DNA of 64,000 nucleotides from Saccharomycopsis phalli (taxonomy: Eukaryota; Ascomycota; Saccharomycetes; Ascoideales; Saccharomycopsidaceae): contig CP073212.1 of assembly GCA_020342235.1 (NCBI GenBank), forward strand, positions 1,612,001 through 1,676,000. The letters run 5' to 3'. Below the pieces are notes generated by a model. It was not told the DNA's origin and made no database searches. It saw only the letters and a list, made by a program, of their open reading frames with translations. Made by a program: the position numbers and the translations under genes. Positions 17,650 through 62,339 of this stretch are shown here, one piece after another; position 1 is the first letter of the stretch; the number at the start of each line of letters is the position of its first letter.

Positions 17650-19394
17650 TTTAATTGCCGGCGACCAGACTTGGATGCTCCACTCTGGTAGGTTTTGGCT
17701 AGAGTTATTCTGGGACGGAGTTTCCGGGCTTTACTCTCAATCTCTTTTGCAATTCTTTCTGCCTTGATTGCTTTCCGGCTGACAGTGGCTTCGTTTGTTG
17801 ATGGAGTCGAGTCTTCGTCATTTTCCTGAGAGGGCTCCTCTTCCTGCTCCTCTTCTGGGTCTGACTGGAGCTCTAATGCTTCATCCATGTTGTCTTCCAG
17901 GTATGTATCGTCTCTCTCCTGGTCATCTTGTGGGACATAGTCCGGGTCCATGTCCTCGGATTCATTATCGGCATTGTCTTGGTGGGTCAAGGAGTCGTCC
18001 TCAGGGGTGATGTCCTTGACTTGGGTTTCAGGTACCTTCTCGCTATCTGGAGTAGCTGATGGTGGGGTGGTGGCTTGAGGCTGGGCCTCCAGTGGTGGAC
18101 TTCTCATTTGAGATTGACTGCGTGTGACTCTCCCGCTATGTTGGCTTGTGATTGGTTCATTTGGCGGACTCATGTGTTGCCGTTTTCTTGGATTTGACCG
18201 CTCTCTCGTGGCGTACACTGGGATGGGTGTATATCCGTTAAGGTAGAAACTTTGCTTGGTGAAGAAGGTAGCAGTGTCTTCATTTGGAAAGAAGACCTTG
18301 GCACAGTAAGCTTTTTCGTTATCTTCTGAGATATTGTCCCAGTCAATGTGGACATCTCGTTTGATGAGAGCTCGTGGAGGGGCGGAGAAGAGTGGGTCAT
18401 CCCATTCTAGTTTTTTGACTTCCTTTATGAAGAAAGCTTCAAGGGCGGCTGGTGAGACTTTGAGGGGGATGTTCCCCACGACGCGTGTGGCCCAAGGGCT
18501 CGGGTCGAAAAATCCCAGTGAATCAAAGATGGAAAGAACAGTATTCTTTGCCTCCATGCTCAATGGCTCGGAGACGTGGATTCTGATCTGTTTGGAGCGT
18601 GTGAGAGTGACGCGGGTAGCCTGTGGGATCTGTTCGCGGAAAGTGTTGACTTGTTTGACTTGTTGGTCCCTTTCAGCTTGAGAAGATGGGTTTGGATTCG
18701 GGTTCTGAATGTAGAAGAGTTTCCCTTGAGCGTACAATTCCCTTCCGTCAATACGGTAAGGTGAATTAGGGCGCCCCCTATGGGTTGGACGAGTTGACGA
18801 TGGATTGCTTTTCATGCCCCGGGCGGCTACTTGAGAGTAGCTGGTGCTTTTGGTGGATCTGAGTTCAGCCTTTAGTTCCCGGAACTCGTTCACTAGGGTG
18901 CTGCAGATCTGTTTGCATCCGTGTACATCTTTGGCAAGGTGGTTGATGTGCTCTGCGGTTAATTTTTGCCAAGATAATGTTGGTTGTTCAGAGCAGAGCT
19001 CCTGCATGATGCTGTTGGTGGTGATAATCCATGGGCGGATGAACTCTGGGATGTCTTCGGTAAGTTGAGGAAGAGGGATTCTCCGTGCGAGCGCTTTCTC
19101 AATCGACAGCGGTAAGTGGGATGTCGGCCAGACGGAATTGGATGTCGGTGATGGAGACTCTGTCCCGTGTTGGGCAGCGGAGCTGCTCTCAGGGGCAAAG
19201 TTAGGGGATTGGTGCGATGCAGTTGCATCTGACCATGGTTCCTGGATTGGCCGCCGCGGCGAGCCTGGGCTTTTTTCAATCATCCTGGGCGGATCTCCTG
19301 GGAAATCTGCTGATGATTGATGAACCGAGGGGGCCAAAGGCCCCTCGGATACTTCGCTTTCAGAAACGTGATTCCTGGATGCAAAATTTTCCAT
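17646..19394 (-). CDS. LINE-B ORF1 (RNA-binding gag-like protein)
   Basis: A 582-aa protein sharing its central block with LINE-A ORF1 (PWATRVVGNIP, FFPNEDTATF). It is longer because of a very acidic C-terminal stretch (about residues 470-545, rich in D and E) followed by a basic end (KARKLRPRITLAKTYQSG). No zinc knuckle is present. The acidic segment is absent from LINE-A ORF1 and may compete with RNA or hold a chaperone (inference). The first ATG at 19394 is the only start that fits, since Q LTR sequence begins six bases upstream. Confidence 0.8.
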   Translation of the reverse strand: MENFASRNHVSESEVSEGPLAPSVHQSSADFPGDPPRMIEKSPGSPRRPIQEPWSDATASHQSPNFAPESSSAAQHGTESPSPTSNSVWPTSHLPLSIEKALARRIPLPQLTEDIPEFIRPWIITTNSIMQELCSEQPTLSWQKLTAEHINHLAKDVHGCKQICSTLVNEFRELKAELRSTKSTSYSQVAARGMKSNPSSTRPTHRGRPNSPYRIDGRELYAQGKLFYIQNPNPNPSSQAERDQQVKQVNTFREQIPQATRVTLTRSKQIRIHVSEPLSMEAKNTVLSIFDSLGFFDPSPWATRVVGNIPLKVSPAALEAFFIKEVKKLEWDDPLFSAPPRALIKRDVHIDWDNISEDNEKAYCAKVFFPNEDTATFFTKQSFYLNGYTPIPVYATRERSNPRKRQHMSPPNEPITSQHSGRVTRSQSQMRSPPLEAQPQATTPPSATPDSEKVPETQVKDITPEDDSLTHQDNADNESEDMDPDYVPQDDQERDDTYLEDNMDEALELQSDPEEEQEEEPSQENDEDSTPSTNEATVSRKAIKAERIAKEIESKARKLRPRITLAKTYQSGASKSGRRQLK

Positions 19395-46284: not shown

Positions 46285-46399
46285 ATAGACTTTTTTCACT
46301 ATATTTTATGAATCATGAATTTCACTTGTATCGAGTATGACGGTAAAAATCCCCTGTTCTATCAAGTAATTAATAACAAAGTTAAAGAGGTCAATTGTT

Positions 46400-46529
46400 T
46401 GTCGTAGTTAATAGATCTGCCCTGATTGGAGAGCCTACTATTATATTCAGTGACGGAAAGTCGATAACTCTTTTACCGACTCCGGCCTGACTACCCGATT
46501 TATTCTGCAATGGTTAACTAATCACGACA
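46400..46529. mobile_element. Short P-like element, 130 bp
   Basis: Ends TGTCGTAGTTAA and GTTAACTAATCACGACA match family P, and perfect TTGTT duplications flank it, but the middle is shortened. It is either an internally deleted P LTR that moved, or one that lost its middle after insertion. Confidence 0.7.
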
Positions 46530-46672
46530 TTGTTTATTGTGATTTTTACTAGGGTCCTTACAGATTAGATTTTAGTTTAACATGTGATTTCTGAAATTTC
46601 TGCGTGGGTTTACATTCAGCATGCAGAGCTTTGTTAAAGTTTGAATTTGATGTAGACATTACTATGAATGGG

Positions 46673-47004
46673 CGTTGTAGATTATATTTTGGTCTGGTTA
46701 GACATAATATTATGATGAACTATAAACTACTTAATTATTTGTTTTGTTCCTTTAGGATCTGGATAACCGGATTGGGCTCTGCTAGATATAATGTCCGGTA
46801 AAATTTTGCGTTTTCTAAAAGGAGGAAGTCCTCCTTTTAGAAAACTATTTCGATCTCTTAGCAGACCCTTATTCTCTAATAATATTGTTTCTAATACCAT
46901 TGGTTGGATTACTTAGTCTTATCAACACCGGGAGTCGGCAATATTCTTACCGACACCGACGTTGCACCAGTGAACTGTTCTACAGTGGTTTGTTAACCAC
47001 GACA
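46673..47004 (-). mobile_element. Solo LTR, family P
   Basis: 332 bp, homologous to 26770-27085, flanked by ATGGG and ATAGG (one mismatch). It includes a perfect 17-bp inverted repeat at 46810-46845. Confidence 0.8.
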
Positions 47005-47754
47005 ATAGGAATATGACGAATTTATGTATTTCATTCTTCCTTTGGGCTGGAATGATTGATCATAAATCCCAATGATCTTTAATCAATAGACGCCCCAGAA
47101 AATTTTCGATTTGGCGTTATATAGTCGTTCAATCCAAATACTTTTTTACTATAATCAGGCCATGATTGATATTCACCTCCGTGTAATATTATAAGATTCC
47201 TTATTGATCATAATACAAGTGTGAATATTTTCTTACGCAATACCTAGTTCATAACTTAGAGCATCTGATTAATACTACAAAACTTTTTGTTATAATTTAG
47301 TAAATCTCGTAATTTAAATATTCCTTTACTGTTTGCGTGATTTATGTTCTTTTATACCGATTGAAAAGTGCAGCAATTTTATTGTGATTCATTCTTGAGT
47401 TATTTATAGACTTTATTGCGACTACACTAGGCTAAGTGAAACCCTGCCCTTATGCTGTATCACTTAATATACAATATGAAGAATTTGGCTTAGTTTATTG
47501 TTAATAATAATACATACTTTGGTTTTTTTTTGGTTGAAATAGCCCGGAATCAAGCCAGGTACTAAAAGGCGAGTTGGTTGTAGTCACGTGTAATCGGACT
47601 CAGAAAGGTGATATACAACGAGACATTTGGAAATGGGAGTACACCTGATGATGTCCAAGCCATCCAGAGAAAAAGTCAGAAAAGCAATGTCTAAAGGAGA
47701 GTCGATGAAAATTAAATAAAGTTAAACATATTGTTCACTACAATCTGTGATAAA
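47005..47754. other. No gene seen
   Basis: AT-rich sequence between a P LTR and a LINE relic. I recognise no coding or RNA feature. Confidence 0.4.
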
Positions 47755-48190
47755 TAATCAATATTTATTTTCGTACTAACGTGACATGTACCCCGAACCG
47801 GGGGTGGCTCAAGTCACCAACGGCCCAGGGGGAAGCTCATTGTCCATCATGTTCTGCTGAAAGTCTATGTATTGGTGGACTAATTTATGGTATGCAAAAC
47901 TTTCCCTGGTATATTCTGCATTCTATTAGCAAAGTCTCATAGTTCATCTATTCTCGAAAGAATTCGGGCTCCTATGAGTCTTGGTCATTGGTGGTCATGT
48001 ATGATTGTGGAAAATGTAATTCCACATTTCTTGCATTCCAGGTATTCATCTTCAAAGAGTTGTAGCAATTTGCCGTCCGTAGGTCTGGCTCTACTGAGTA
48101 ACAGGGAAATCAAGCTAAGAATCGACTTGGGTGCTGAATTTGCTTCCAAAAGGAAGCTTAGTTTTGTCTTTGTAGACCGCTAAAGGCCAT
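47755..48190 (-). mobile_element. Old LINE relic, A-like
   Basis: Minus-strand translation gives KLSFLLEANSAPKSILSLIS, a finger with C-x2-C and H (ECKKCGITFSTIIHDH), and GARILSRIDEL, all aligning with the LINE-A ORF2 C-terminus. Divergence is larger than between the other copies, and stops are present. Confidence 0.7.
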
Positions 48191-51100
48191 TTTCTCATTC
48201 CTTGCACTTTTTGGTAAAGTATTGGGAGGTAGACACTATGGAAGGTGGCTGTTTCCTGCTGACCAAGCCATAATTGACTAAGGTCATCTGTGTTTTAGGC
48301 AACTGGCCCAATAGTACTTCTCTTACTCTGTGATCTATTTTAGCAAACCCCGCTGATTGTTTTAAGTAAAAAGGAAAAGCATCAGTGGTGCTTTTTGGTA
48401 TGCAGCCTTTGTCTTTCTGATATAAAAGCAACCTTATGCCATTCAGTCATGTCTACCCCTCAGCGCCGATTCTTCAGGATAGATCATTTCCGTCAAATTG
48501 AAAACTGAGGCTTCTTTTATTTATTTATTTATTCTTCTTTTGGTTGGTTATCCCCACTTTGGAAAATTTTGATTAGAAAAGTTCTATCGCGTTCAGTGTG
48601 ACTTTACCTCGATCACACTATTATTATTTTGTCAACAACAAGCTATGCTGTTAGTATAAAACAGAAATATTTATAAATGAGTTGTAAGTAAAACTGTCAT
48701 ATCTATGGCGTTTAGCTTTATAATTTGTCCATCTCTTATTGGCTCCGTGGGTAGTCTTAGATTGCTAGAAAATATTAAAAATCATATTCAGATAGACAAC
48801 ACTATATTGAAGAGAAAATTGAAATCATATCAGTATATGACCAGTTATAGCTAGTCCTGTTAAGCATAATTCAGAGCATCACTTCGACAAGGCGTGTTCT
48901 CGATAATATCACTATAACTAGTGTGTGACTGGGTAGGGGTCATGGAAGTAGGGAAAACAAAATAAATTCACTTCGGAATGGGACATGAATGAATTAACAG
49001 GCTTGTCTAAAGAAGTAAGTAATTGTTAGCATAATCTGTAGTCCTTTATTAAGTATAGCCTTCTGGCCATTTTAATGTGATACAAAGATTCACCTGTGTT
49101 TTTCTAAGTCATCGAATTTTCTTATGTGAATGTGTAAACAGATTTCTATGGGGTTTGGCTTCGGATACTGCCCAGCAATTCACCCGTTGATTTTATTAAT
49201 CACGCGCGGTACACCATCAATATTCAGCCGACTAATGTGCCCCGCTTGAATCAGGCTTAGGACCTGCTGCTTTCTCGTACCATATTTTGAAAAAGGCTGG
49301 TAACTATGGCTAATTGTAATTTTTGTGTAGGAAGGAACTGTCACTATTTTGCCGTATAAGGGATTATTAATCCAGTTGTTTGGTTATATACATTGTACGA
49401 CCCCACTGACAAGAAATATCGATGAATTTTCGTAAAAAGCGTCGGAACCATCAATGAGGTTTCGCCGAGAGTATGTGCATGCGAGATTATGTGGATTATG
49501 GTGCCATGCTAATGTAACGATTGTCTATTAGGATGTGCAACCCATCCGTGGAAACAATGCAAAAAACATATTATGCACCGTAACTCCGAAGCAACTGCCC
49601 AAACTGCCGTCTGGACCGTTTAGAGCGAGTACATTACTGATTCAGCTACTCTCAGGAATGGGAAGTGACTACCTGAAACTTGAGCGTGCTACATACATAA
49701 CTTTCAAGTTTTGCTGGCTGTGTCTTTACACTCTTGTAAATAAAGGAATCATCAGTGTATATCATATGCGTTTAGCGGAGTTTGCCGTATTTTTACAATT
49801 GACATTAATGTTAACGTTTTCAAAAAAAACACCCAATGTTTGCTATGCAGATTTTTCTACTCCACACTTTCATCACATGCCCAATGTGGTTTCTCTAGTT
49901 GTCACCATTTATCGTATTACTGAAATTGGTTTAAACGGTCAATTTTTCTGACCTGGTGTGTTGTAGTAAATATTACACCGTCCATAACTGGTAAGTGCTC
50001 GCTCGTATGGTTCCTACTGTGATTTTCTACTAAACTCTTCCGCCTTATACGTTTGTAGTTTGTCAATCTCGGTGTAGATAAATACCAATGGGGAATTTTT
50101 ACCACAAATATAATGTTTGTCATAATACTTATTAAAATACTGGGTTATATTGTCGAGAAAAAATTACGTTGAGTGTTTCGGATGTTCAAACCCATTTGGT
50201 GCTAAGCTTCCGACATAAGTGAATACCTCCCAATACTCTTTTAGAATTTTCCTCTATATACGTTAAGAAATAGCAAGAACCACCAAATTACTTTCGGAAA
50301 ATAAATTACTTTTTGCCTAAGTACCAGATGCAGTTGGCAATGAGGAGTTTCTAAGAAAGCACCCTTTGATTTGTTTGGCGCTAGGGTTATCAAAAAGAAT
50401 GTCCCGAAGCACTGCCCCCTCAATTTTGTGGAGGTTCTTGCTTGAACGAGGAATCTTGTATTCGTGCTATTGCGGTCACAAAGGCGTATTCCAGCATCCA
50501 GTAGGTTTTGGGAATACGAGTGTAGCACTTAGATCTCGTAACATTTTGATTGCGTAAAAGTGTGCTCTTCAATGGGGCTGGCTGAAGTATTGGAAAGCTC
50601 ATATTACTTAAGCGGATAATACGATTACTTCATACACTTTTGGCGTTGAGCTGTTGGATGCGTCCTGAAATAAGAGATGCCGGGCATTATATACCGGGAA
50701 ATGTTGGTTCTAAGACTTCTTTTGTGTTCTAGACATTGCAAATACTCACTTTGAGTATTTCACTCCCGGGGTAATGTATTGTTAATGAAAACGTTTGACA
50801 CGGTTTTGACGTGATTGAGTTTTGGGCGCCAAGAGAGCACCAAGAGAGCCGAGAAATTGACCTGCTTAGAGCGCCAAGAGAGCTAAGACCGCCGAGAAAT
50901 TAATACAATGGCACAAAAAGCTATACTTAATGTATTTGTTATAACTATCAGGATATAAAGGGTACATAGATGAATACTATAATTGATATTCAACGTAATA
51001 TAATATGCGGATAGCATCATATCTGACCATTTCGGTAGTAAGGTATGAAAATCTTTCGGCACTTAGCATACAAGATTTCCGAAGTATACGCAAGTGCATG

Positions 51101-51532
51101 CCCGCACTATGCATGAAAAGGGATGAGGGGCAGATGTTGATACTTGGCAAACAATTTCTGTGTTCCGACGAGCAGAGCGTAGGCTAGCCCAAAATATTTT
51201 TACAGATTTTTTCGGTGAACCCGGTGCCCGTAGAAGCAACCAAGTATTAATCTTAAACGGGGTATATACTACCAGTATTACTGTAACAATATTTGAATTC
51301 TATTTAAAATTTTAGAGAGATTCACACCGAGGCCAAGTAATCGGCAAGATTACTACTGCTACTGCCAAATAGCTGGGGTGCATTCGGGAGCTAGTGAAGA
51401 AAAGTACCGAAACATTCCCGTGACTATTCTCTAGCCTCACAAGTTTATTTTGTGGAGAAATGGGGGAAGATGCATAAGGTATATGCACAGAAATGGAATT
51501 TTTCACAGCCATCTGCATCATCTACACTGAGG
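48191..51532. other. 3.3 kb without a recognisable gene
   Basis: AT-rich. A 138-aa frame at 49535-49951 has no recognisable domain and is not called. A direct repeat is at 50828-50902. This may be the upstream control region of the transporter plus decayed element sequence. Confidence 0.5.
50828..50902. repeat. Imperfect direct repeat upstream of transporter
   Basis: GCGCCAAGAGAGC and GCCGAGAAATT each occur twice, in the same order, about 45 bp apart, with a third CACCAAGAGAGC. The block lies 690 bp upstream of the transporter ATG. Role unknown. Confidence 0.5.
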
Positions 51533-51539
51533 TATAAAG
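51533..51539 (+). promoter_or_regulatory. Likely TATA box of the transporter gene
   Basis: TATAAAG lies 53 bp upstream of the ATG at 51592, a plausible though rather short distance for a yeast TATA box. Confidence 0.35.
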
Positions 51540-51591
51540 GGTAAGAAATTTCCCCAAGAAAAGCATCAAATATCGAAAACATCTTTCTTAA

Positions 51592-53232
51592 ATGTCGATG
51601 GAAATAAAGGAAAAAGATATCGAGGCAACTGCAGCCCACCCAACCACTCTTGCTGATGTGACTCCAAAGTTGGAGAAGTTCTGGACCCACTATCCAGCTT
51701 TGGTCAGATTGAATTTTCATCTTATTGGAAGTGTTATGGTTTTGATTACCAACGGTTTTGACGGAACTATGATGAACAACTTGCAGACTTTGCCAAGTTG
51801 GAAAAAATTTTTCCACAACCCTCACGGTGTGGCTTTGGGTAACTTGAATATCGGTGTTACTGCCGGTGGTTTGATTTGGGCTCCTTTTGCTCTTGTCTTG
51901 GCCCAGTACCTTGGTAGAAAGAAGATGATTATTTACGGTAACATTATTTTGATGATTGGTGCTATCCTTCAGGGATGTGCTCAAAACATTACCATGTTCA
52001 TTGTTGCTCGTTTCTTAATTGGTTTTGGTGGTATTGCATTTGCTGGTGCCGGTCCTCTTTTGGCTGAGACTGCGTTCCCTACTCAAAGAGCTATTCTTAC
52101 TTCGTTCTTGAATGCCTCCTTCCCAACTGGTGCTTTCGTGGCTGCTTTGGTCACCTGGGGTCCATACAACAGTCACTTGCGATTCAACAACTGGTCGTGG
52201 AGATTGCCATCGCTTTTGCAGCTTTTCTTCCCATTTTTGTCTACTGCTTTAGTTTTCTTCGGACCTGAGTCTCCACGTTGGTTAGTTTCCAAGGGAAGAG
52301 ATGAGGAAGCCTTTGAAATCTTGACCAAGTACCACGGTTTTGGAGACCCAGAAAGTCCACTTGTGCAATTTGAAATGTCCGAGATCAAGGCCGCTCTTGC
52401 CATGGAGGCCGAGAACAAGAAGAACTTGTGGGTTGAGTGGTTTAGAACCAAGGCTAACCGTCACAGATTGGGTATAACTTTGGTGTTGCCATTCATGCAA
52501 CAATGGTCTGGAAACTCTTTGGTTGCTTACTACTTAACTCTTATCTTGAACAACATTGGAATCACCAACACTCAATCTCAATTGAAGATCAACATTGGAT
52601 TGACAATTTACGGATTGGCATGGGCCTACGCTGTTTCTACTGTTACCAACAAGTTTAAGAGAACTACTATGTTGATGACTGCTTATAGTTCCATGGGTTT
52701 CTTTTTCCTCATCTGGACGATTTTATCTGCATTGAACGACCAACAACACTTCAAGAACAAAGCATTGGGTAAGGGTGTCGTTGCGATGATCTTCTTGTTC
52801 CAGGGATGCTACCATATTGCCACTCCAATTCCAGCAACCTACATCACTGAAATTTGTCCATATGACTTGAGAGCCAGTGGAATTGTTCTTTACCAGACAT
52901 TTACCAACGTTGCCAACGTTTTTAATGCATACGTGAACCCTGTTGCTCTTCAAAACATTTCTTGGAAGTACTACATTATCTATGTGGTTGCCTTGTTCTG
53001 CTTTGTTGCGATTGTGTACTTCTTCCTTCCAGAGTCCTTGGGTTACTCCTTGGAAGAGGTTGCTGTTATCTTTGGTGACAACATTCATGAAATTCAAGAG
53101 GCTGGTGCTCATGCTGTCGAGGAGATGGAGGAGCAGCACAGAATTGACATGATTAAGCCAACTGCTGTCCACAATGAAGATACCAACAAGGCTCCGGAGG
53201 AGAGCAGCAGTAACAGTGTCGGCAAGAACTAG
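51592..53232 (+). CDS. MFS sugar transporter, lactose-permease-like
   Basis: A 546-aa plasma-membrane transporter of the sugar porter family. Twelve hydrophobic segments are visible. Family marks: NGFDGTMMNN in the first segment, YLGRKKMIIYG in the loop between segments 2 and 3, RFLIGFGG, the PESPRWLVSKGRDEEA signature after segment 6, MQQWSGNSLVAYY in segment 7 and FFLPESLGYSLEEV after segment 12. The sequence resembles fungal lactose/disaccharide permeases (Lac12 group) more than hexose carriers. The ATG has A at -3; a second Met at residue 3 is an alternative. It lies 675 bp upstream of, and in the same direction as, a cytosolic GH88 hydrolase, so its substrate may be an unsaturated uronate disaccharide (inference). 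No CTG codon was noticed, consistent with strong codon bias. Confidence 0.93.
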   Translation: MSMEIKEKDIEATAAHPTTLADVTPKLEKFWTHYPALVRLNFHLIGSVMVLITNGFDGTMMNNLQTLPSWKKFFHNPHGVALGNLNIGVTAGGLIWAPFALVLAQYLGRKKMIIYGNIILMIGAILQGCAQNITMFIVARFLIGFGGIAFAGAGPLLAETAFPTQRAILTSFLNASFPTGAFVAALVTWGPYNSHLRFNNWSWRLPSLLQLFFPFLSTALVFFGPESPRWLVSKGRDEEAFEILTKYHGFGDPESPLVQFEMSEIKAALAMEAENKKNLWVEWFRTKANRHRLGITLVLPFMQQWSGNSLVAYYLTLILNNIGITNTQSQLKINIGLTIYGLAWAYAVSTVTNKFKRTTMLMTAYSSMGFFFLIWTILSALNDQQHFKNKALGKGVVAMIFLFQGCYHIATPIPATYITEICPYDLRASGIVLYQTFTNVANVFNAYVNPVALQNISWKYYIIYVVALFCFVAIVYFFLPESLGYSLEEVAVIFGDNIHEIQEAGAHAVEEMEEQHRIDMIKPTAVHNEDTNKAPEESSSNSVGKN

Positions 53233-53906
53233 ATTTCTAGAAGCTAAATCTCTTTAGCAAGCGTTGACTTATACGATTTATATAACAGAATAGTTTTATT
53301 TTAATGAGGTGATTTATAAATGTAGTCTTTGAGTAGTCCAGTTTGCTTGCCGGGGGTTTAGTATCCTGCTTGGTGGTACATTGCTGTTTGATATAGTCCA
53401 TACTGGTCCGTTTCTAGCAGAGTCTTCTGTACCTATGTATACTACTACGGACTCTCGGATATTCTTTTACTCGGATATGCGTTTGGTACACCTGGCAGTT
53501 TCTGGCCCGCTATATACGTTGGTAACTTGTTACACTCACTGGATCTTAATGACCACGCGCATAAGTACGCATCTATATGCTGTAATTGTGCGTCTCTTGG
53601 CAATTTACGCCGCATGACAAATCTTAATGAGTCCGGATTTCAGCCTGAGAAAAAAGCAAGAAGCAGTGTTCAACAGCGCCAAGAATATGAGCCAAGCTTT
53701 AGATGCAGTTGTCCTTGGTATATCTGCGTTGCAAGTTTCTGAAATTTTGTATTTCGGCTATCCTTCCGACGGCTATCGTGTCGACGTTGTGCGTAATAGG
53801 AGGTACCCCACCAACCCCACCTGATCGGGCCACGATGCAGGTTTTCACCGGGGTTCCTCGGCATATAATATGGGGCTCTTGGCACTACAAGACGACAAGA
53901 AACACA
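53233..53906. other. Intergenic region before the GH88 gene
   Basis: Contains the transporter terminator region and GH88 promoter. Frames that seem to extend GH88 upstream (from 53703) encode a sequence unlike the family; a TATA-like CATATAATATGG is at about 53861. Confidence 0.45.
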
Positions 53907-55130
53907 ATGTCTGACGTGAAGCAGCAATTGAACGAAATCAAGGATGAATTATTTGGCGAGTCTCCTGTCGCTAAGATCTGGGGTGTTGCCAGACAAAAGT
54001 TGAACGACACTCATCCACCAGTGGAGTTCCCAGAGTACTCGTACGGCAAGTACGAGTATAAGCCAATCAAGTTCTGGACCGCAGGATTCTTCCCAGGATC
54101 GCTTTACACCTTATTGGAGCGGAGCATCAAGTACCCAGAGCACTTCCCAGCCGAGAAGTTGGAGTCGTTGAAGTTGCAATTTGCCTCGAGATGGTGGGCC
54201 GAGAACTTGAAGGAAGAGGCCAAGCGGACCAACACCCACGACATGGGATTCTTGATCTGTCCTGCCTTTATTCGGGAGCACGAGCTTTATGGCACCAAGG
54301 AAAGTTTGGATGTCTTGGTGACTGCTGCCAACTCGTTGGCGTCACGGTTTAACGAGAAGGTTGGATCGCTCAGAAGTTGGGATCGCCAGATTAACAAGAA
54401 GCGGGAGATCACCAATATGGACGAGGACTTCTTGGTGATCATCGACAACATGTGCAACTTGCAATTGCTCTACTACGTTGCTGCCAAGACCGGTGACTTG
54501 CGTCTTTCGACCATTGCTACTAAGCACGCCGAAACCACTTTAAAGAACCACTTCCGTCATCCTGAATGGTCGACGCCTCACGTTGTCAACTACTGCCAAA
54601 AGACCGGTGACGTCAAGGAGAAATTCACCCACCAGGGTTACGCCGACGACTCTGCTTGGTCTAGAGGACAGGCTTGGGCTATCATGGGATTTATTGAGAG
54701 TTACAAGTGGACCAAGAAGGAGGCTTTCCTTGATGCTGCCATCAATGCCACCGACTACTTTGTCAGTAGATTGCCAGAAGACGGTGTTCCAGGCTGGGAC
54801 TTTGACGCCCCAGACAAACACATTAAGGACGTGTCGGCTGCCACTGGTGCTGGTCTCGGTATTCTCCAGATCTACGAGCACACCAAGGACGAGAAATACT
54901 TGAAAATCGCCGTCAAGTTGATCCACGATACCATCAAGTTTGCTTACAATGACAAGTCCACCATTAACGCTGACGGCAGTGTCAACGGTGTCAAGGAGAC
55001 TATCTTGGACCACGCCACCGTCAACAACTACGAGTATGCTCTTCACAGATACGCTGACCACGGTTTGGTCTATGCTGACTACTTTTACTTGGCGTTTGGT
55101 AACAAGCTTCTTGAGTTGGGTTTGGCTTAA
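53907..55130 (+). CDS. GH88 unsaturated glucuronyl hydrolase
   Basis: A 407-aa enzyme that hydrolyses the delta-4,5-unsaturated uronic acid from disaccharides made by polysaccharide lyases; the released sugar opens to a 5-keto-4-deoxyuronate. The family is seen in FWTAGFFPGSL (56-66), THDMGF with D112, the catalytic-acid region IIDNMCNL with D180, THQGYADDSAWSRGQAW (241-257) and WDFDAPD (297-303); D112 and D180 correspond to the two catalytic aspartates of bacterial UGL. The start is the ATG at 53907 (context ACACAATGTC): an upstream in-frame ATG at 53703 would add 68 residues with no family similarity. There is no signal peptide, so the enzyme is cytosolic and its substrate must be imported, fitting the transporter upstream. 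GH88 is rare in budding yeasts as far as I know, so transfer from bacteria or filamentous fungi is possible. Confidence 0.9.
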   Translation: MSDVKQQLNEIKDELFGESPVAKIWGVARQKLNDTHPPVEFPEYSYGKYEYKPIKFWTAGFFPGSLYTLLERSIKYPEHFPAEKLESLKLQFASRWWAENLKEEAKRTNTHDMGFLICPAFIREHELYGTKESLDVLVTAANSLASRFNEKVGSLRSWDRQINKKREITNMDEDFLVIIDNMCNLQLLYYVAAKTGDLRLSTIATKHAETTLKNHFRHPEWSTPHVVNYCQKTGDVKEKFTHQGYADDSAWSRGQAWAIMGFIESYKWTKKEAFLDAAINATDYFVSRLPEDGVPGWDFDAPDKHIKDVSAATGAGLGILQIYEHTKDEKYLKIAVKLIHDTIKFAYNDKSTINADGSVNGVKETILDHATVNNYEYALHRYADHGLVYADYFYLAFGNKLLELGLA

Positions 55131-55429
55131 TGACTTACGATCCACAGTAATGCATGGTTATTATTATTGTAGCTTTGGTAATAAATATGGTTGGCTGGTA
55201 AGCTTTGTAAGAATTGTATTAGCCAGATATCACAATAACATCCTTTTATGTTGTTTAGTAGCTTTACAGCGTTGTGTATCTGTATTGTGATTATCTCAAG
55301 TCTCCTCTAATAAGATTGGGGCAATTCACTTCCTCAGAATATATAATGTGTGTTTGTTTTCTCTAATATATTGTACTCAATTTAAATTCTGTTCCTTCAT
55401 ATATCCTAAAAATATTTTTATAAACAAGT

Positions 55430-55548
55430 GCTCGCGTGGCCCAATGGTTAAGGCATCTGACTTCGAATACTAAACAGTGTTTGGCATACGAGAGTTAATA
55501 CTCTTAGTGGATATCAGGGGATTGGGGGTTCGAGTCCCCTCGTGGGCT
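55430..55548 (+). tRNA. tRNA-Arg(UCG) with intron
   Basis: Acceptor GCTCGCG / CGTGGGC, anticodon stem TCTGA / TCAGG, loop CTTCGAA (anticodon TCG), T-loop TTCGAGT. The stem closes only if a 46-bp intron (55467-55512) after position 37 is removed. The intron contains CGA, able to pair with the anticodon. Confidence 0.9.
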
Positions 55549-55916
55549 TTATTTTTATTGCGGTAATATGTATTGTGCGGGTAACTGTTACCGACTTAAA
55601 CTACCATAATGCAACGGACTCTTCTGAAGCATTAGACGCAAATGCCAATATGACGAGGCTAGTCTTGTACTGAAGACCCAAATGGAAATAAAGAGAGCAA
55701 CGTTCTGAATAAGAACAGCAGGCTGTTCTTTTTCAATTGGTCCGAAGAAACTAGACTAATTTGTTCAAAGGCTCTTCAGATATCGTATTCATTTTACCAA
55801 GTAACTTGACCAATCTCTAAACATATCAAGTAGCAGCCACTTTAGTAATGTGCGATTACGTATACCATTCTACAAAGGAAATGATAGGTTATTCAATAAC
55901 AGTCGTAAATACAAAT

Positions 55917-56843
55917 TTACTGGTCATCATCAAAGACCTTGATTGGAGCCCAGTTTGGACTGAGGAACCGCTTGGTTCCCTTGGTCTTGTGGATGTTGGT
56001 GATCTCCTGTCCCTCCTCGTCGGACAAGTCAACAATCTTCAAATTGTTCTCGATTCTGGAAGCTGTCACCGATTTAGGCAAGACAGCAACGCCTCTCCAG
56101 ACAGACCAGCTGACCAAGATATTGGCTGGGCTGATGTCATGCTTCTTGGCGATCTTCAAGACGGTCTCGTCACTCAACAAAGGAGATCCGGTAGATCCCA
56201 ATGGCGAGTATGCTTCCAAAAGGATATTGTGCTTGTTGCAGAAGTCCAACAACTTGAGCGATGGCAAGTATGGGTGCAATTCGACCTGGTTAACCACGGG
56301 CTTGATCTTTGTGCGTGGATCGTTAAGCAATCTGGTCAAGTTGGTGATGCTGAAGTTGGACACACCAATCGACTTGGCCTTACCCTGTGCCTGGACCTTT
56401 TGGAGATCTTCGTAGCCAGCAACAAAGTCCCAGTCAACCAAGATGTCCCGATCACCGTTTGGCAATGTAGGAATCGATGGGTGGTTTCCGTTTGGGTTCA
56501 AGGCAACAGGCCAGTGCATCAAGTACAAGTCAATGTACTCCAATCCCATCTTCTTCAAGGACTCGTTGATGGACTCCTCCACCTTGGTCTGGCCAATAGG
56601 AGACAACTTTGTGGTGACAAAGATGTCCTTTCTGTTGATCCCAGAGTCCTTGATGGCCTTACCAACAGCTTCCTCGTTTCCATAAGCTGCAGCAGTGTCA
56701 ATGTGGTGGTATCCTGCCTTGATAGCAGCAAGAACAGCACTGTACACTTCCTCGCTGGACGACTTCCAGGTACCCAATCCAATTGCTGGAATACTGAGTC
56801 CATTATTGAGCTTAAAGGTCTTGGTGCAGATGTGGGCGGCCAT
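55917..56843 (-). CDS. Aldo-keto reductase (GCY1/YPR1-like)
   Basis: A 308-aa NADPH-dependent reductase of carbonyl compounds, cytosolic. The catalytic tetrad is complete: D49 (HIDTAAAYGNE), Y54, K79 (TTKLSP) and H110 (YLMHWP). GVSNFS and VLPKSVTASRIENN are the cofactor-binding marks, the K-S...R pattern pointing to NADPH. Length and sequence fit the yeast GCY1/YPR1 group. It converges on the GH88 gene with tRNA-Arg between. A role in reducing the keto-uronate released by GH88 is attractive from position, but these enzymes are promiscuous and common, so this is inference. Confidence 0.93.
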   Translation of the reverse strand: MAAHICTKTFKLNNGLSIPAIGLGTWKSSSEEVYSAVLAAIKAGYHHIDTAAAYGNEEAVGKAIKDSGINRKDIFVTTKLSPIGQTKVEESINESLKKMGLEYIDLYLMHWPVALNPNGNHPSIPTLPNGDRDILVDWDFVAGYEDLQKVQAQGKAKSIGVSNFSITNLTRLLNDPRTKIKPVVNQVELHPYLPSLKLLDFCNKHNILLEAYSPLGSTGSPLLSDETVLKIAKKHDISPANILVSWSVWRGVAVLPKSVTASRIENNLKIVDLSDEEGQEITNIHKTKGTKRFLSPNWAPIKVFDDDQ

Positions 56844-58427
56844 TTTTCTTTTTTTTTTGTGATTAGAAAAATGGGTTGTCTAAGATTTATATAGCAATTA
56901 CTCCCCCACCAATCGGCAAGGGCTCTTCCGATATGTACCAACCGGACGGGTATATGATTCGGAGAATAGTGTTGCTTATTACACGAGAATTCGTCGGATT
57001 TGTCCAATTGCAAGAGAGTTGCTCATCTCTGTTCTTCCACAAGAGATTGACTCGAAAGTATGCTTGTGTAATTCATTCAAAGATGTTGTACACTTGTAAA
57101 GTGATGTGGACTCCCAGACTGGTATTGGCACATTGACCACTTGTATATCTTGGCGGATGACAAATACCGACGGATGACAAATATCAATGAATGACAAATA
57201 TCAATGAATGACAAAATATCAATGAATGACAAATGGTGGCAGGCTATAATGTCTATACGAGTCTCGGGATCAGTTTGATGTAGTCCGGGGTAGATTGGCT
57301 TTGGGAACGAAGTACAGGGTCTGCTTCTGATTTCTGATCCATCTGCATTAAATCAACATCCTGGGTTTGAATAAAGCTTGTTACCAACCTTTCCTTTAGC
57401 CCTGTTGCTGTTTATGGTATCACTGTGACTCGGTCAACTCTTGGTTATGTTCCTCACTTAGCACTATACCAGGTAGTAGATTCAGCATACGGTCACTCAC
57501 GTAGTTTGGTTTAACCCGTTAACACCGCCATTGTCATTAAATATAGCCCTAAATGATTCGGCGATACATTAATTGTTAGTGTGGAGCTTTCTGATGGTTG
57601 ATTTAAACTAACATATCTGTTTTCAAAGTGTCAACGCTAAAAAGTCTCTGTATATGCAAAAGGCTATATAATGGGACAACGTTACAGTCGTCTTATGGCT
57701 TGGATATTAGGACCCTGGTCGAGCTTAGACCAAAAAAAATAAAACCAGAATTGATTCAGTGGCTCAAATTATTACGGATGCACAACATTAATGTGACCTC
57801 CAGTCAGACCTAGTGTTTCCTCTTCTATGTTGGGGTCCTTTCACTGGCAGATGAATAAACAATAAGTAAACGTACTAAACACAAGGGTGTACGTAAGCAA
57901 TAGCAGAGATTCAAGCTAAGTTACTGACGTAAGATTATAATGTGCTAATCCATGTCTTTTTATACCCATACGTTCCGCAGTATCGTGGCTGTGCCATCGT
58001 GGCTGATTCACGTTTCCTGGAGACATGGTTCCTCTTAAACGGGATAGTCCTTAATAGATCGACTCTTCTAGATCGTATAGTCCACTAACTTTTTGGTCTA
58101 CCTTTCGAATCATACCTTGTACGATATCAAAGTCCGCGCACCGAACAGATATACCTTGAGTGATTCACCATCCAACAATAGCCCATAATGCTATATTAGT
58201 GCTCTTGATTTTATAAAATCAAACCAATGTCAATTCTTCCTCCATTTGCTGCACTTACCCCACATTTATCCGGCTTGAATACAAGGGAAAATTTTACCAT
58301 GTTGTCATACAAATATTAAGAATGCATTATGCACGTTTGTTATAAGCCCTTGGTTGGCTTCTCATACAAGAATTTGACACATCATTGAAAAAAAATAAAG
58401 GCACAATTCTAATGAATTATGACAAAC
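56844..58427. other. Intergenic region; possible diverged V LTR
   Basis: Holds the promoter side of the reductase gene and a short tandem repeat (57155-57235). About 57793-58120 contains CCTAGTGT, CTTCT and a T-rich TTTTTATACCCATAC that resemble family V in order, perhaps a very old copy. No gene was recognised. Confidence 0.4.
57155..57235. repeat. 17-bp tandem repeat
   Basis: About four and a half units of ATGACAAATATCAATGA type, the last copies nearly identical. Non-coding. Confidence 0.8.
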
Positions 58428-59135: not shown

Positions 59136-62100
59136 TCACCATGCTATCTTGGCAATAAAACTTTCCGGATACTTTCTAACAAAGTATTTCCGAATCTCAT
59201 CATATATCAACACCACCAAACCAAAGCCCATAGCAATAAAGTAATATTCCACAGGGGGATGCGCAGTGCCGGTGATTTTGTTAAACCACGGAATGTAGTT
59301 AAAAAAAAAAGTCACTGCAAGTGCAAAGCCAATAGCAAAGAACATCAAGTGGTTTCTGGTTAAAGGGTTGAGAATTGGCGGGTGTTGGAAGATGGATAAC
59401 GTACGTGTTCTGACTGCCATCAAGTTGAAAAACTGCATAATGACGAGGTTTATGAAGTAAACCGCCGAGGAAACGTTTCCAACCGTGGAAATTGTGTCTG
59501 CTGATATGTTAAAAGAGCCATAGGAGAGCGTGAGCTCGCTGAATGGGATTCCATTGCGTTTGAAGTTTAGGAAGCAAACCAACATAGACGTGAACGCGTA
59601 ATATGTACCAATGGTAAAGTACGAGTGGAGAAACAACTTATAGTCAACAAGTCGCTCACCAGAAATCGATCGAGGCTTCTTTTTCAAAAGGTTTCGTTCA
59701 GGAGATTCATAGGCCAATGTGATGGCACCGGCACAGTCTGTGAAGCAACAGATCAAGATCATATTGAATGATGAAAGAGCCTGTGGCAATCCAAAGATGA
59801 TGTTAAGAAGTACCGGCCAGAGTTCTGCGTAAGTTCCAGCGGGGAGAAGGTATGCGATAGTCTTTCGCAAGTTCTCAAACACCAACCGGCCATACAAGAG
59901 CGCGTCAAGAATCGACGAGAATGAGGCCAAAAGCACCAAGTCAGAAGCTTCCTTGGCAACATCTGATCCTTCAGCCATTGCAATACCGACGTCGGCCTTT
60001 TTTAACGATGGAGCGTCATTTATACCATCTCCAGTCATCCCCACGATGTTTCCTGCTGCCTGAAACTTCTCCACAATTCTCAACTTCTGTTCTGGAGTGG
60101 CTCTTGCAAAGACAATCTCAGTGTAGCGCGTCAAGACCGACCATTGCTCATCAGTTAGCACCAGTAAATCATTTGATGTCACCACAACTGCCCTTTCGAT
60201 AAGACCCTCGTGTGTCAGCTTGTTGGTAAGTAAGTCAGACGCCAGATCGACGTAAGACTTCGAGACAATACCACACAACCGAGCAATTGCAACTGCAGTA
60301 AGTTCAAAATCACCTGTCACCATTGCCAATCGTATTCCAGCCTCTCGTAGCGTGTCCACAACATGGGGTATGTCATCTTTTGGCGGGTCAGTGATACCTA
60401 CAAGTCCGACTAATGTGAGGTCTGACTTTGTAAGTGACGTAAGATACGCGGTAACTTGATCGGAGTCTTGCCAGAAACTTTCTGGCTTGTCATCATGTAA
60501 AGTTCTAGATGCAAGCAACACCACTCGTTTCCCCTGGTTTGCCCAGCGGCTCTGGATATTGATAATCTGGCTCTTGACGGTATCCAGTATGAAGACCTTA
60601 CTGTCTCCATCGAGATAGTGGGAGCATCCCCCTAACAAAATATCAGGAGCACCTTTAATGGTAAAGAACAAGTCACGATAATTGATCCCTACCTTCTGAG
60701 CCGCTTCTTCCGTCCGTGCCTGATACATTTGTGCCATGTACTTTGTCTTGGAGTTGAATGACAACTCACCGCGCAACAGCCACATGCCTCTAATCTCCTC
60801 AGTAGAACCAATAGTCTCAGCAAATCTGAAAATGGCTTGATCAGTAGCGTTCGAGTGAATCGTTCTATCCATTAATGGAAGATGCATAGTCCGTGGGTCA
60901 AACGTAGCAGTGTTGCATAGACTGGAAATTGCATGGAGTTGACCAATACCGTCGAGGTCCTGAATTTTTGTGTCATCCAATAGCGCCAAATCGGTGATTC
61001 CCAATGTAGCGTCAGTGACAAACATCTTGTTCTTTGTCAATGTGCCTGTCTTGTCTGAACAGAGCACCGATACCGAACCCAATGTCTCAACAACTGACAA
61101 AGATTTACACAAAATCTGTTTCCGGCGCATTACTCCAGCGGTAATAATCAAGCAAGTAGTCAAAGCAATTGGCAAGCCTTCTGGGATGAATGCCACGGCA
61201 ATTGAAACGATGTCGACAATCAAAGTAGGCACGGTGATCCATTCAGGGAAGGACTTGTGCAACCAGGCGCCCCAAAGAATGCACACGAGTACAATAAAGG
61301 CAACAATAATCGATACTGTGATCATTACAAACCGCAATACCTCCTTTTGCAATGGCGAGAGTCCGTGTTTCGGCACAGATGAGATACGTGCAATCTGGCC
61401 AAACACAGTACTATCAGCGGTACCCACAACTATCGCCTTTCCAGAACCCATGACACAGAACGTTCCCTGCATAGCAATACACTTTGATTCCAAGTAATTA
61501 CTGCCTCTTGGTTCGGTTTTGATCGATGCTGGCACGGGTTTTGACTCACCAGTAAGCACCGACCGATCAAAGGCAAGATCTGAACTATGTTCGAATATCC
61601 GCACGTCAGCAGGAACCTTACTACCCATCTCCAATATCACAATGTCACCTGGAACCAAGTCGCGTGCAGAAGTCGTCATTGGTGTGCCGTTGCGAATCAC
61701 TCGACAATCTGAAGGCAACACCGAGTGAATCGAGTCCATAACCCGTGAAGATGTGAAATCCTGAATGAAGTTGAACGCCGCCTGTGCTAGAAACACAATG
61801 AAGAGCACCACTCCAAGCACAAGGTTTGCCACTGCCGGTGGTTGGCCCAAAGGTTTCCATGAGATGCAGCACAAGATGCCTCCAGTCATAAGCAACGCGC
61901 CAAAACCACCAAAGAAATACATGAAAATCTTCCGTGCAAGTCCCGAAGGCGGCTTCAGCTGCACGTTAGGACCGTATCTTTTCATCAGTTCTGTGGCACC
62001 AGCGTCAGAAAGCCCGCTCACCAAGTTTGTGTAAAGCTCTGCTGCTACTGACTCGGGGTCTCGAATATGCCACGTCTTGTCAGCAAACTGCTTTGCTTTT

Positions 62101-62339
62101 GGATCCAGGTCCTCATCAGCATCCTCAATTCTGTGAGAAATTGTCTTGAACGCAATTGGCAACACGGTCTCCGGTGGAACTTTCTCCCTCAAGGAAACCT
62201 CAGAAATCCTTCGGTGAAGGGAGGCACGCCGTGAAAGACCTGGACGCTGCTCAGGCTTGGACTCAACATCAAATCGGATATTTTTCTCGGAACTGAAGTC
62301 GTCGTACTTCACATCAATCGAGCTTTCGGCCATTGTCAA
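59136..62339 (-). CDS. P-type cation ATPase, ACU-like
   Basis: A 1067-aa membrane pump. A cytosolic N-terminus of about 135 residues precedes the first membrane pair. TGES (263-266) marks the actuator domain, FIPEGLP (384-390) the ion-binding fourth segment, DKTGTLT with phosphorylated D429 the P domain, KGAPDILLGG the ATP-binding region and TGDGINDAPSLKKADVGIAM the hinge. Six hydrophobic segments fill the C-terminal part. The FIPEGLP motif, SVLCSDKTGTLTKNKM and overall similarity to Na/K-type pumps point to the fungal ACU group (alkali cation uptake) rather than Ca2+ (PMR1) or Na+ efflux (ENA) pumps. ACU pumps take up K+ or Na+ at the plasma membrane at low external concentration. Subgroup moderately sure; family certain. 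Residue 127 is encoded by CTG. Confidence 0.9.
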   Translation of the reverse strand: MTMAESSIDVKYDDFSSEKNIRFDVESKPEQRPGLSRRASLHRRISEVSLREKVPPETVLPIAFKTISHRIEDADEDLDPKAKQFADKTWHIRDPESVAAELYTNLVSGLSDAGATELMKRYGPNVQLKPPSGLARKIFMYFFGGFGALLMTGGILCCISWKPLGQPPAVANLVLGVVLFIVFLAQAAFNFIQDFTSSRVMDSIHSVLPSDCRVIRNGTPMTTSARDLVPGDIVILEMGSKVPADVRIFEHSSDLAFDRSVLTGESKPVPASIKTEPRGSNYLESKCIAMQGTFCVMGSGKAIVVGTADSTVFGQIARISSVPKHGLSPLQKEVLRFVMITVSIIVAFIVLVCILWGAWLHKSFPEWITVPTLIVDIVSIAVAFIPEGLPIALTTCLIITAGVMRRKQILCKSLSVVETLGSVSVLCSDKTGTLTKNKMFVTDATLGITDLALLDDTKIQDLDGIGQLHAISSLCNTATFDPRTMHLPLMDRTIHSNATDQAIFRFAETIGSTEEIRGMWLLRGELSFNSKTKYMAQMYQARTEEAAQKVGINYRDLFFTIKGAPDILLGGCSHYLDGDSKVFILDTVKSQIINIQSRWANQGKRVVLLASRTLHDDKPESFWQDSDQVTAYLTSLTKSDLTLVGLVGITDPPKDDIPHVVDTLREAGIRLAMVTGDFELTAVAIARLCGIVSKSYVDLASDLLTNKLTHEGLIERAVVVTSNDLLVLTDEQWSVLTRYTEIVFARATPEQKLRIVEKFQAAGNIVGMTGDGINDAPSLKKADVGIAMAEGSDVAKEASDLVLLASFSSILDALLYGRLVFENLRKTIAYLLPAGTYAELWPVLLNIIFGLPQALSSFNMILICCFTDCAGAITLAYESPERNLLKKKPRSISGERLVDYKLFLHSYFTIGTYYAFTSMLVCFLNFKRNGIPFSELTLSYGSFNISADTISTVGNVSSAVYFINLVIMQFFNLMAVRTRTLSIFQHPPILNPLTRNHLMFFAIGFALAVTFFFNYIPWFNKITGTAHPPVEYYFIAMGFGLVVLIYDEIRKYFVRKYPESFIAKIAW

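Follow-up and report, generated by a model that had tools for sequence, protein, structure and literature searches.

The window, i.e., the whole stretch of 64,000 nucleotides from Saccharomycopsis phalli analysed here (genome 14.15 Mb, 8 contigs), carries the gene of an MFS sugar porter next to that of a predicted GH88 unsaturated glucuronyl hydrolase, with the gene of an aldo-keto reductase (AKR) further on (Table 1). A sequence-only reading of this DNA had named these three genes, and all of them are present with open frames, as seen from ORFs, Pfam and solved structures. We consider it plausible that the locus is a novel version of the permease-glycosidase pairs known from yeasts, in which the reductase may have a part. 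More specifically, and with confidence a little short of even, we propose that MFS and GH88 together form a scavenging module for small unsaturated glucuronides, from which 5-keto-4-deoxyuronate (DHU) would be released and passed on via an AKR and an aldolase.

Table 1. Features of the MFS-GH88 locus, in positions of the window
Feature	Position	Strand	Basis
C2H2 + Fungal_trans regulator gene	43738-46284	+	Pfam
MFS sugar porter, 546 aa	51592-53232	+	open ORF; Pfam Sugar_tr (PF00083) E 4.2e-68
TATA-like box, 5' of GH88 start	53864-53869	+	consensus-scan match, not proof
GH88 unsaturated glucuronyl hydrolase (predicted), 407 aa	53907-55130	+	solved-structure matches
tRNA gene with intron, between GH88 and AKR	55430-55548	+	Rfam RF00005, 45.1 bits
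Aldo-keto reductase (AKR), 308 aa	55917-56843	-	PF00248 E 3.6e-50

MFS and GH88 share one orientation and are separated by 674 bases. The AKR gene is convergent to both, and the tRNA gene, with anticodon TCG (Arg) as assigned by eye, intervenes before it, two features absent from the sequence-only reading; this tRNA gene is absent from the ARAGORN output, unlike that of the Rfam search. The next recognisable gene upstream of MFS encodes a C2H2/Fungal_trans protein, a possible candidate for regulator of the locus. It lies beyond an ORF-poor gap of 5.3 kb, across which no gene was found by ORFs and Pfam. The seven small ORFs around the locus genes have no Pfam match, and TACTAAC branch sites occur at chance level only. 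As a separate observation on this genome, CTG stands at Leu-like positions of its ATPase, judged by eye. Its enolase matches best the Enolase 1 entries 7vrd, 7v67 and 1ebg, which come from Candida and Saccharomyces.

The GH88 protein is matched by eight distinct solved-structure sequences, all of GH88 type, with 3wiw as the best (E 1.5e-40, residues 48-396). Five of the eight are named GH88, unsaturated glucuronyl or unsaturated chondroitin disaccharide hydrolase, and the other three, named gbs1889, equal 2zzr ('Unsaturated glucuronyl hydrolase') save single changes in the printed alignments. The positions of D112 and D180 are invariant in 10 of 10 aligned sequences, and they align with positions reading Asn in 3vxd and 3ani; we take D115 and D175 of the streptococcal enzyme to be the two catalytic aspartates. 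The earlier assignment is supported by this homology and by the retention of both aspartates, and it is credible that the protein is an unsaturated glucuronyl hydrolase. Family membership is here based on solved structures, not on Pfam: the GH88 model PF07470 gives 18.8 bits, below its cut-off of 26.6, and the GH127 model 29.1 bits, just above its cut-off of 24.9. When the whole genome was searched with PF07470, the window's own GH88 gene was not among the matches. The model passes its cut-off on two of three GH76 proteins, from which follows that it discriminates poorly in this genome. Four PF07470 rows, considered as GH88 paralogues, were dropped, as they are located in three GH76 proteins. 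GH88 occurs in one copy in the genome, a count that derives solely from the protein search (two candidates scored, one match), since the PF07470 search omitted the window's gene. Structure prediction with a two-row alignment as input gave a pLDDT of 51.6.

The longest GH88 frame, 53703-55130 (475 aa), contains a further in-frame ATG at 53835, and the likely start is the ATG at 53907, with the two upstream ATGs less likely. This preference comes from the position of the TATA-like box, from the distribution of CTG codons (two in the 67 codons counted of the upstream extension, none in the GH88 body) and from the short N-terminus of the Pantoea homologue, where only 12 residues precede the residue aligned with GH88 residue 1. 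The query of the plasmid search described below was the short form only, so that the extension is invisible to that search. With the likely start, the protein has no signal peptide as judged by eye, in keeping with what had been claimed. If translation instead began at 53703, the N-terminus would bear a hydrophobic stretch that could serve as signal peptide, the enzyme would be secreted and the MFS protein would import the freed sugar. Such secretion is very improbable, since the TATA-like box sits 3' of this ATG, the CTG codons are confined to the extension and the Pantoea homologue has 12, not 68, residues in the corresponding region.

The MFS protein may be lactose-permease-like, judging from the motifs GFDGTMMNNLQTLPSW and QQWSGNSLVAYYL and not from a database match. 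It scores 217.2 bits against TIGR00879, just below the cut-off of 237.8. In a tree of the genome's own transporters (23 genes, after one of the initial 24, which has an internal stop, had been left out for length) it joins a paralogue on contig C3, L020 (100/100), apart from the group that we take for hexose-type carriers; a grouping with hexose carriers, named at the outset as refuting the suggested pathway, is not seen in this own-genome tree. Sugar porters are common in the genome (28 match rows), so that a single transporter neighbour can be there by chance, and AKRs are numerous as well. This favours an alternative in which the GH88 enzyme is genuine and cytosolic, kept or acquired from filamentous-fungal stock, while the MFS protein would transport a different sugar and the AKR would be a carbonyl reductase of general function. 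That the C3 paralogue of MFS adjoins a Gig2-like gene, that the tRNA gene intervenes and that the AKR gene is convergent all fit chance neighbourhood. However, a cytosolic GH88 requires some importer, the MFS and GH88 genes are codirectional at a distance of 674 bases, and a transporter lies beside GH88 in two of the eight plasmid loci examined. We hold chance neighbourhood to be less likely than not, yet a serious alternative.

The promoters bear on the same question. Five patterns were scored in 11 promoters, with 300 shuffles each. The CGG/CCG pattern occurs 17 times in the MFS promoter versus 9.8 expected by shuffling (p 0.01) and 17 times in the AKR promoter versus 9.7 (p 0.01), and the GH88 promoter has CCCCAC twice versus 0.2 (p 0.01) and GGGGT four times versus 0.8 (p printed as 0.00). 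These four lowest p values all belong to the three locus genes, and the lowest in the other eight promoters is 0.07. Common nine-mers number 18 for MFS-AKR versus 9.4 expected and 14 for GH88-AKR versus 8.5, but only 4 for MFS-GH88 versus 10.1, i.e., fewer than chance, which speaks for chance neighbours. Eleven-mers are not shared at all, and the MFS, GH88 and AKR promoters have no single element in common. Since many patterns were tried and no common element emerged, the comparison is mixed and a hint at most.

GH88 is common on bacterial plasmids, where 216 of 72,556 records match the window's protein, as might be expected if the gene were a recent bacterial transfer or the contig foreign. 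This origin is scarcely credible, because the best listed plasmid match has 37.5% identity and all 216 are below 60%, the relatives in a scan of bacterial and archaeal genomes with strict patterns are at only 36%, the gene lies within a 2.3 Mb contig, and its composition resembles that of the neighbouring AKR gene (GC3 0.66 in both). Scans of viral contigs gave no fungal match. As for gene neighbourhoods, an 'oligosaccharide MFS transporter' stands directly before GH88 on a Pantoea plasmid (NZ_CP016891.1), ABC permeases adjoin GH88 in Rhizobium, and a DHDPS-family gene lies near GH88 in Halocatena.

The reductase is more loosely tied to the pair. Its best solved relative is 4ijc, a D-arabinose dehydrogenase, and the genome has at least nine other AKR genes. 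The AKR is a weak candidate for the enzyme that would reduce the released keto-deoxyuronate. Of the three-gene pathway suggested from the sequence, the GH88 identity, the lack of a signal peptide on the likely start (by eye) and a transporter outside the presumed hexose-type group of its own genome are supported, and the link to the AKR is weak, with about ten AKRs in total and a convergent gene behind a tRNA gene. The bacterial isomerase KduI was not found in the genome by a search that was positive in 6 of 14 controls. One RpiB-family isomerase is present on contig C7, so that DHU could also take an isomerase route. This protein passes the ribose-5-phosphate isomerase model TIGR02133, and among solved structures it is closest to 3qd5, a putative ribose-5-phosphate isomerase from Coccidioides. 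We weighed this protein as a candidate for DhuI but decided against it, as it scores as ribose-5-phosphate isomerase; an erythrulose-phosphate role is possible, with a below-cut-off model pointing to it. Two proteins of the dihydrodipicolinate synthase (DHDPS) family PF00701, which we take to be the family of the fungal galacturonate-pathway aldolase, are encoded on contigs C5 and C4. Both score best on dapA, yet below all cut-offs, including that of the archaeal KDG aldolase model. Together with a dehydratase-like gene on C1 they may serve another sugar-acid pathway.

The steps that we propose are as follows. Polysaccharide lyases of other organisms would make an unsaturated glucuronide outside the cell, and the MFS permease would import the disaccharide with its 4-deoxy-L-threo-hex-4-enuronate end. 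Cytosolic GH88 would then hydrate the double bond, giving the partner sugar and DHU, and an AKR would reduce the C1 aldehyde of DHU, without the bacterial isomerase. GlcA and GalA differ at C4 alone, and this difference is lost in the lyase step. From this follows that reduction of DHU would give L-threo-3-deoxyhexulosonate (2-keto-3-deoxy-L-galactonate), on which the aldolase of the fungal galacturonate pathway acts. This compound would be split into pyruvate and L-glyceraldehyde by one of the two DHDPS-family proteins, and an AKR would turn the L-glyceraldehyde into glycerol. The accessible parts of the literature describe the fungal reductase-aldolase pathway and fungal uronate reductases of broad specificity (PMC6353982), an aldolase with 'L-threo' in its name, per a reference title (PMC3933009), and the chemistry of DHU in bacteria (PMC12838403). 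A complete eukaryotic pathway for unsaturated uronides, with a dedicated permease, a cytosolic GH88 and one AKR step that needs neither the isomerase of bacteria nor the dehydratase of fungi, is unlikely as a whole; it would be a eukaryotic three-step counterpart of the bacterial DhuI-DhuD-KdgK-KdgA route.

As no lyase was found, the yeast would scavenge the products of other organisms' lyases. The searches differ in weight: pectate lyase PF00544 was not found in the genome by a search positive in 2 of 14 controls, the negative for PF14099 is weak, as one of 14 controls was positive and under cut-off, and the PL8 search (PF02278), with nothing in the genome, is uninformative, as it was silent in all 14 controls. 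Concerning the substrate, His242 of the GH88 protein replaces streptococcal Arg236, and the streptococcal YSWHSGK motif aligns with a stretch without it. We take Arg236 and Ser365-Ser368-Lys370 to be the residues of the streptococcal enzyme that are specific for the sulfate group; as read from the alignment, the predicted protein here is without sulfate-site residues of streptococcal type. Their absence would suit a substrate from plant material, i.e., side chains of pectin or arabinogalactan after lyase action, instead of a glycosaminoglycan. In the available parts of the sources, moreover, fungal GH88 is usually grouped with pectin enzymes (PMC2441463, PMC5307856), a putative unsaturated glucuronyl hydrolase of Aspergillus niger is controlled by AraR (PMC5617896) and GH88 is present in Rhodotorula endophytes (PMC6476726). 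On the other hand, the pectate lyase would again have to be foreign, the unsaturated galacturonyl hydrolase YteR belongs to GH105 according to the accessible text of PMC12838403 and no solved match is GH105-named, and heparinase II/III or sulfatase genes occur close to GH88 in four of the eight plasmid relatives. A plant substrate is held tentatively, with the balance slightly against it. It concerns the substrate alone and is compatible with the scavenging module.

If the scavenging module is real, it places a budding yeast in a 'cheater' niche beside lyase-making bacteria, gives fungal GH88 a testable pathway and shows how DHU, described with bacterial enzymes as far as the sources at hand go, enters fungal metabolism. 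To our knowledge, standard yeast growth tests omit such unsaturated sugars. The permease and hydrolase could also be used for engineering yeasts that grow on lyase products of xanthan, ulvan, hyaluronan or pectin.

Among known systems, the MFS oligosaccharide transporter gene that directly adjoins GH88 on the Pantoea agglomerans plasmid NZ_CP016891.1 is alike in arrangement, but it is bacterial and seen as annotation only. Among the open-access titles and abstract beginnings listed, none is on GH88 with a permease in budding yeast, which does not prove absence, and the papers found on GH88 and Saccharomycotina all concern filamentous fungi; the accessible portions of this literature contain no tested pathway for fungal GH88. 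Aspergillus and Rhodotorula have GH88 too (PMC5307856, PMC6476726, PMC10662464), and the putative unsaturated glucuronyl hydrolase of A. niger would share its activity with the enzyme proposed here (PMC5617896). In the available parts of these four papers no linked permease is described, and their organisms, either filamentous fungi or yeasts of the basidiomycetes, differ from this ascomycete yeast. In the glycosaminoglycan clusters of streptococci and Streptobacillus, as far as the accessible text goes (PMC5430744), import of unsaturated disaccharides is combined with a cytosolic GH88, as proposed here; but import is by PTS or ABC systems and a lyase is included, whereas here the importer would be MFS and no lyase was found. 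Downstream, the streptococci have DhuI-DhuD-KdgK-KdgA, whereas here an AKR gene lies nearby and KduI was not found. Similar in plan are the permease-glycosidase pairs LAC12-LAC4 and CEL1-CEL2 of Kluyveromyces (available part of PMC6926475), where, also in a yeast, a sugar permease gene adjoins that of a glycosidase acting after uptake. Those clusters serve neutral disaccharides with ordinary glycosidases, whereas the enzyme here is a GH88, which would hydrate unsaturated uronides.

A sugar transporter of the major facilitator superfamily (MFS), a GH88-type hydrolase and an aldo-keto reductase (AKR), the gene set of the sequence-only reading, are all present as intact open frames in this genome of 14,148,124 bases in 8 contigs, where the window spans C1:1612001-1676000 (see table). 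The proposal built on them, that the yeast imports an unsaturated disaccharide, splits it in the cytosol and uses the AKR to handle the released 5-keto-4-deoxyuronate (DHU), is borne out in its gene set and partly supported for the pairing of a permease with a cytosolic GH88. We tentatively take this pairing as the best explanation of the locus; a part for the AKR in such a module is conjectural. The AKR does lie near GH88, as claimed, but on the opposite strand and transcribed towards it, with a tRNA gene in between, and this position is poor evidence for a link to the other two genes.

Features of the locus and other elements in the window
Feature	Position	Strand	Remark
LINE-type retroelement	2133-6967	-	
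LINE-type retroelement	14272-19394	-	
C2H2 + Fungal_trans regulator	43738-46284		next recognisable gene upstream of MFS
Interval upstream of MFS	46285-51591		5.3 kb, no recognisable gene; longest frame 139 aa; frames tried without Pfam match
Sugar-porter MFS	51592-53232	+	intact ORF
In-frame extension of GH88	53703-53906		68 codons ahead of short start
Alternative GH88 start	53835		possible in-frame ATG, adding 24 residues
TATA-like box	53864-53869		immediately ahead of short start
GH88-type protein	likely start 53907, end 55130	+	intact ORF
tRNA gene with intron	55430-55548		between GH88 and AKR
Open frame of 348 codons	55848-56894	+	wholly antisense to AKR
AKR	55917-56843	-	intact ORF
Repeated word AAATATCAATGAATGACAAAT	57162-57234		upstream of AKR; 21 bases, four copies, 81-100%, period 17-18 bases
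P-type ATPase	59136-62333	-	

The long antisense frame is most likely a by-product of codon usage in the AKR. In both LINE-type elements the two ORFs are open; the first has no Pfam match and overlaps ORF2 by 4 bases, and ORF2 carries endonuclease and reverse transcriptase domains. Among solved structures, the P-type ATPase is most closely related to Na,K-ATPase alpha subunits (best E 1.8e-154), with SERCA matches far behind, and presumably it belongs with the fungal ACU-type pumps.

For the hydrolase, the Pfam GH88 model scores below its cut-off (18.8 bits) and the GH127 model slightly above its own, so that the family call was placed on matches to solved structures instead. Eight distinct PDB sequences were matched, the best being 3wiw (E 1.5e-40). 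Five are named GH88, unsaturated glucuronyl or unsaturated chondroitin disaccharide hydrolase; the other three are named gbs1889, and their aligned part is that of 2zzr ('Unsaturated glucuronyl hydrolase') with no or single changes. Yeast D112 and D180 occupy positions that we take to be those of the catalytic aspartates D115 and D175; D112 aligns with Asn in 3vxd and D180 with Asn in 3ani, and 2zzr has Asp at both. When the yeast protein is aligned with nine prokaryotic relatives, each 28-35% identical to it, 42 columns are invariant in all ten, including H111, D112, W158, D180, H225, Q243, W251, R253 and W257. By protein search GH88 is a single-copy gene. Four PF07470 matches elsewhere in the genome were rejected as paralogues, all lying inside three GH76 proteins; this PF07470 search missed the window gene itself.

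A cytosolic place for GH88 depends on its start. The extension contains a hydrophobic stretch that could resemble a signal peptide. From the sequence it is judged probably untranslated, because of the TATA-like box, because CTG occurs twice in 67 counted extension codons versus never in the GH88 body, and because only 12 residues of the Pantoea homologue precede the residue aligned with yeast residue 1. With the likely short start, GH88 would lack a signal peptide by eye, as the sequence-only reading stated.

The MFS protein is a full-length sugar porter (PF00083), scoring slightly below the TIGR00879 cut-off; its putative lactose-permease label is drawn from sequence motifs. A genome search for sugar porters gave 28 matches in 27 genes (two matches are pieces of one gene). 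Sequence was available for 24, and 23 entered an unrooted tree confined to this genome. There MFS forms a pair with a gene on chromosome 3 (39% identical, support 100/100), and the two then join two further genes (92/97). Grouping with hexose carriers would have spoken against the proposed import; in this tree MFS is separate from four genes that carry a QQLTGINFIFYYG-type motif and that we presume to be the hexose carriers.

At least nine more genes of the AKR family occur in the genome (11 matches, of which two belong to a single gene), the nearest of them at 51%. Among solved structures the AKR comes closest to 4ijc, a D-arabinose dehydrogenase. Its promoter shares 18 nine-mers with that of MFS, versus 9.4 expected, and 14 with that of GH88, versus 8.5. 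No element common to all three promoters was found.

According to the excerpted text of PMC12838403 and PMC5430744, bacteria turn DHU into D-KDG in two steps, an isomerisation followed by a reduction. Enzymes of such a pathway were searched for in raw DNA, exon by exon. KduI was not found in the yeast genome, by a search positive in 6 of 14 control genomes. DhuI belongs to the RpiB family (PMC12838403, in part), and one RpiB-family gene lies on contig C7 (L059, G000:C7:565901-566600). It was not counted as DhuI because its protein passes the ribose-5-phosphate isomerase model TIGR02133 (184.8 versus a cut-off of 168.2 bits); its closest solved relative is 3qd5, a putative ribose-5-phosphate isomerase, and it may act in erythritol or in DHU metabolism. 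The two PF00701 proteins score highest on the curated model dapA but stay below its cut-off, and with the KDG aldolase model and others they likewise fall short. The mandelate racemase group gave one dehydratase, on C1, and an enolase matching solved Enolase 1 entries from Candida and Saccharomyces. Neither pectate lyase nor PF14099 lyase was found in the genome, the latter with a weak control, and a PL8 search was negative in the yeast and in each of 14 control genomes.

A shorter route can be considered. Glucuronate and galacturonate differ at C4 only, and the lyase step erases the stereochemistry at C4 while C2 and C3 are kept. It would follow that reduction of the C1 aldehyde of DHU gives the aldolase substrate of the fungal galacturonate pathway. 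The yeast would then require only GH88, AKR and aldolase, families all represented in this genome; the fungal uronate reductase is an AKR, and the fungal aldolase a DHDPS-family protein. On a Halocatena plasmid a DHDPS-family gene lies about 1.8 kb past GH88. Fungal uronate reductases are described as unspecific in the part of PMC6353982 cited here. We infer this shortcut, of which no statement was found among the papers that the literature searches listed.

As to substrate, we take it that the streptococcal enzyme holds sulfate by Arg236 and a Ser-x-x-Ser-x-Lys motif. Yeast His242 aligns with Arg236, and the motif region with a stretch lacking Ser-x-x-Ser-x-Lys. The Arg236 column, with Arg in one of the ten sequences (Rhizobium) and His in two (yeast and Hymenobacter), is mixed and therefore variable. 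These residues would count mildly against sulfated fragments. On the other side, among eight plasmid neighbourhoods of GH88 relatives, two have heparinase II/III genes nearby and two more have sulfatase genes, so that acidic or sulfated glycans are often the targets of related enzymes. In fungi, GH88 is mostly grouped with pectin enzymes (PMC2441463 and PMC5307856, in excerpt), and in Aspergillus niger a gene for a putative unsaturated glucuronyl hydrolase requires AraR (PMC5617896, likewise).

Recent transfer of GH88 from bacteria is unlikely, because its relatives on plasmids (37.5% identity at best among the matches listed, all 216 matching records below 60%) and in bacterial and archaeal genomes (one at 36% in a strict-pattern scan of the collection) are only distantly identical. 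Presumably the yeast sequence resembles filamentous-fungal GH88. GH88 in a yeast is already known and thus not itself new, since Rhodotorula species carry it (PMC10662464 and PMC6476726, in the portions cited); its pairing with a permease in a budding yeast did not appear among the papers listed by the literature searches.

Assuming about 6,000 genes, and with about 27 sugar porters, a given gene has a sugar-porter neighbour by chance with a probability of roughly 1%, an estimate of modest weight because the pair was picked after the fact. The MFS and GH88 promoters share fewer nine-mers than expected, which counts against a non-chance pairing. The plasmid loci offer a comparison: a transporter adjoins GH88 in two of the eight, none lies within 2.5 kb in five, and one is without annotation. 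The two are a Rhizobium plasmid, with sugar ABC permeases around GH88, and a Pantoea plasmid, where the gene immediately ahead of GH88 is annotated as an oligosaccharide MFS transporter; they speak for an MFS-GH88 pairing beyond chance. The Pantoea agglomerans plasmid (L064, NZ_CP016891.1), a bacterial parallel to the yeast gene pair, is typed as conjugative.
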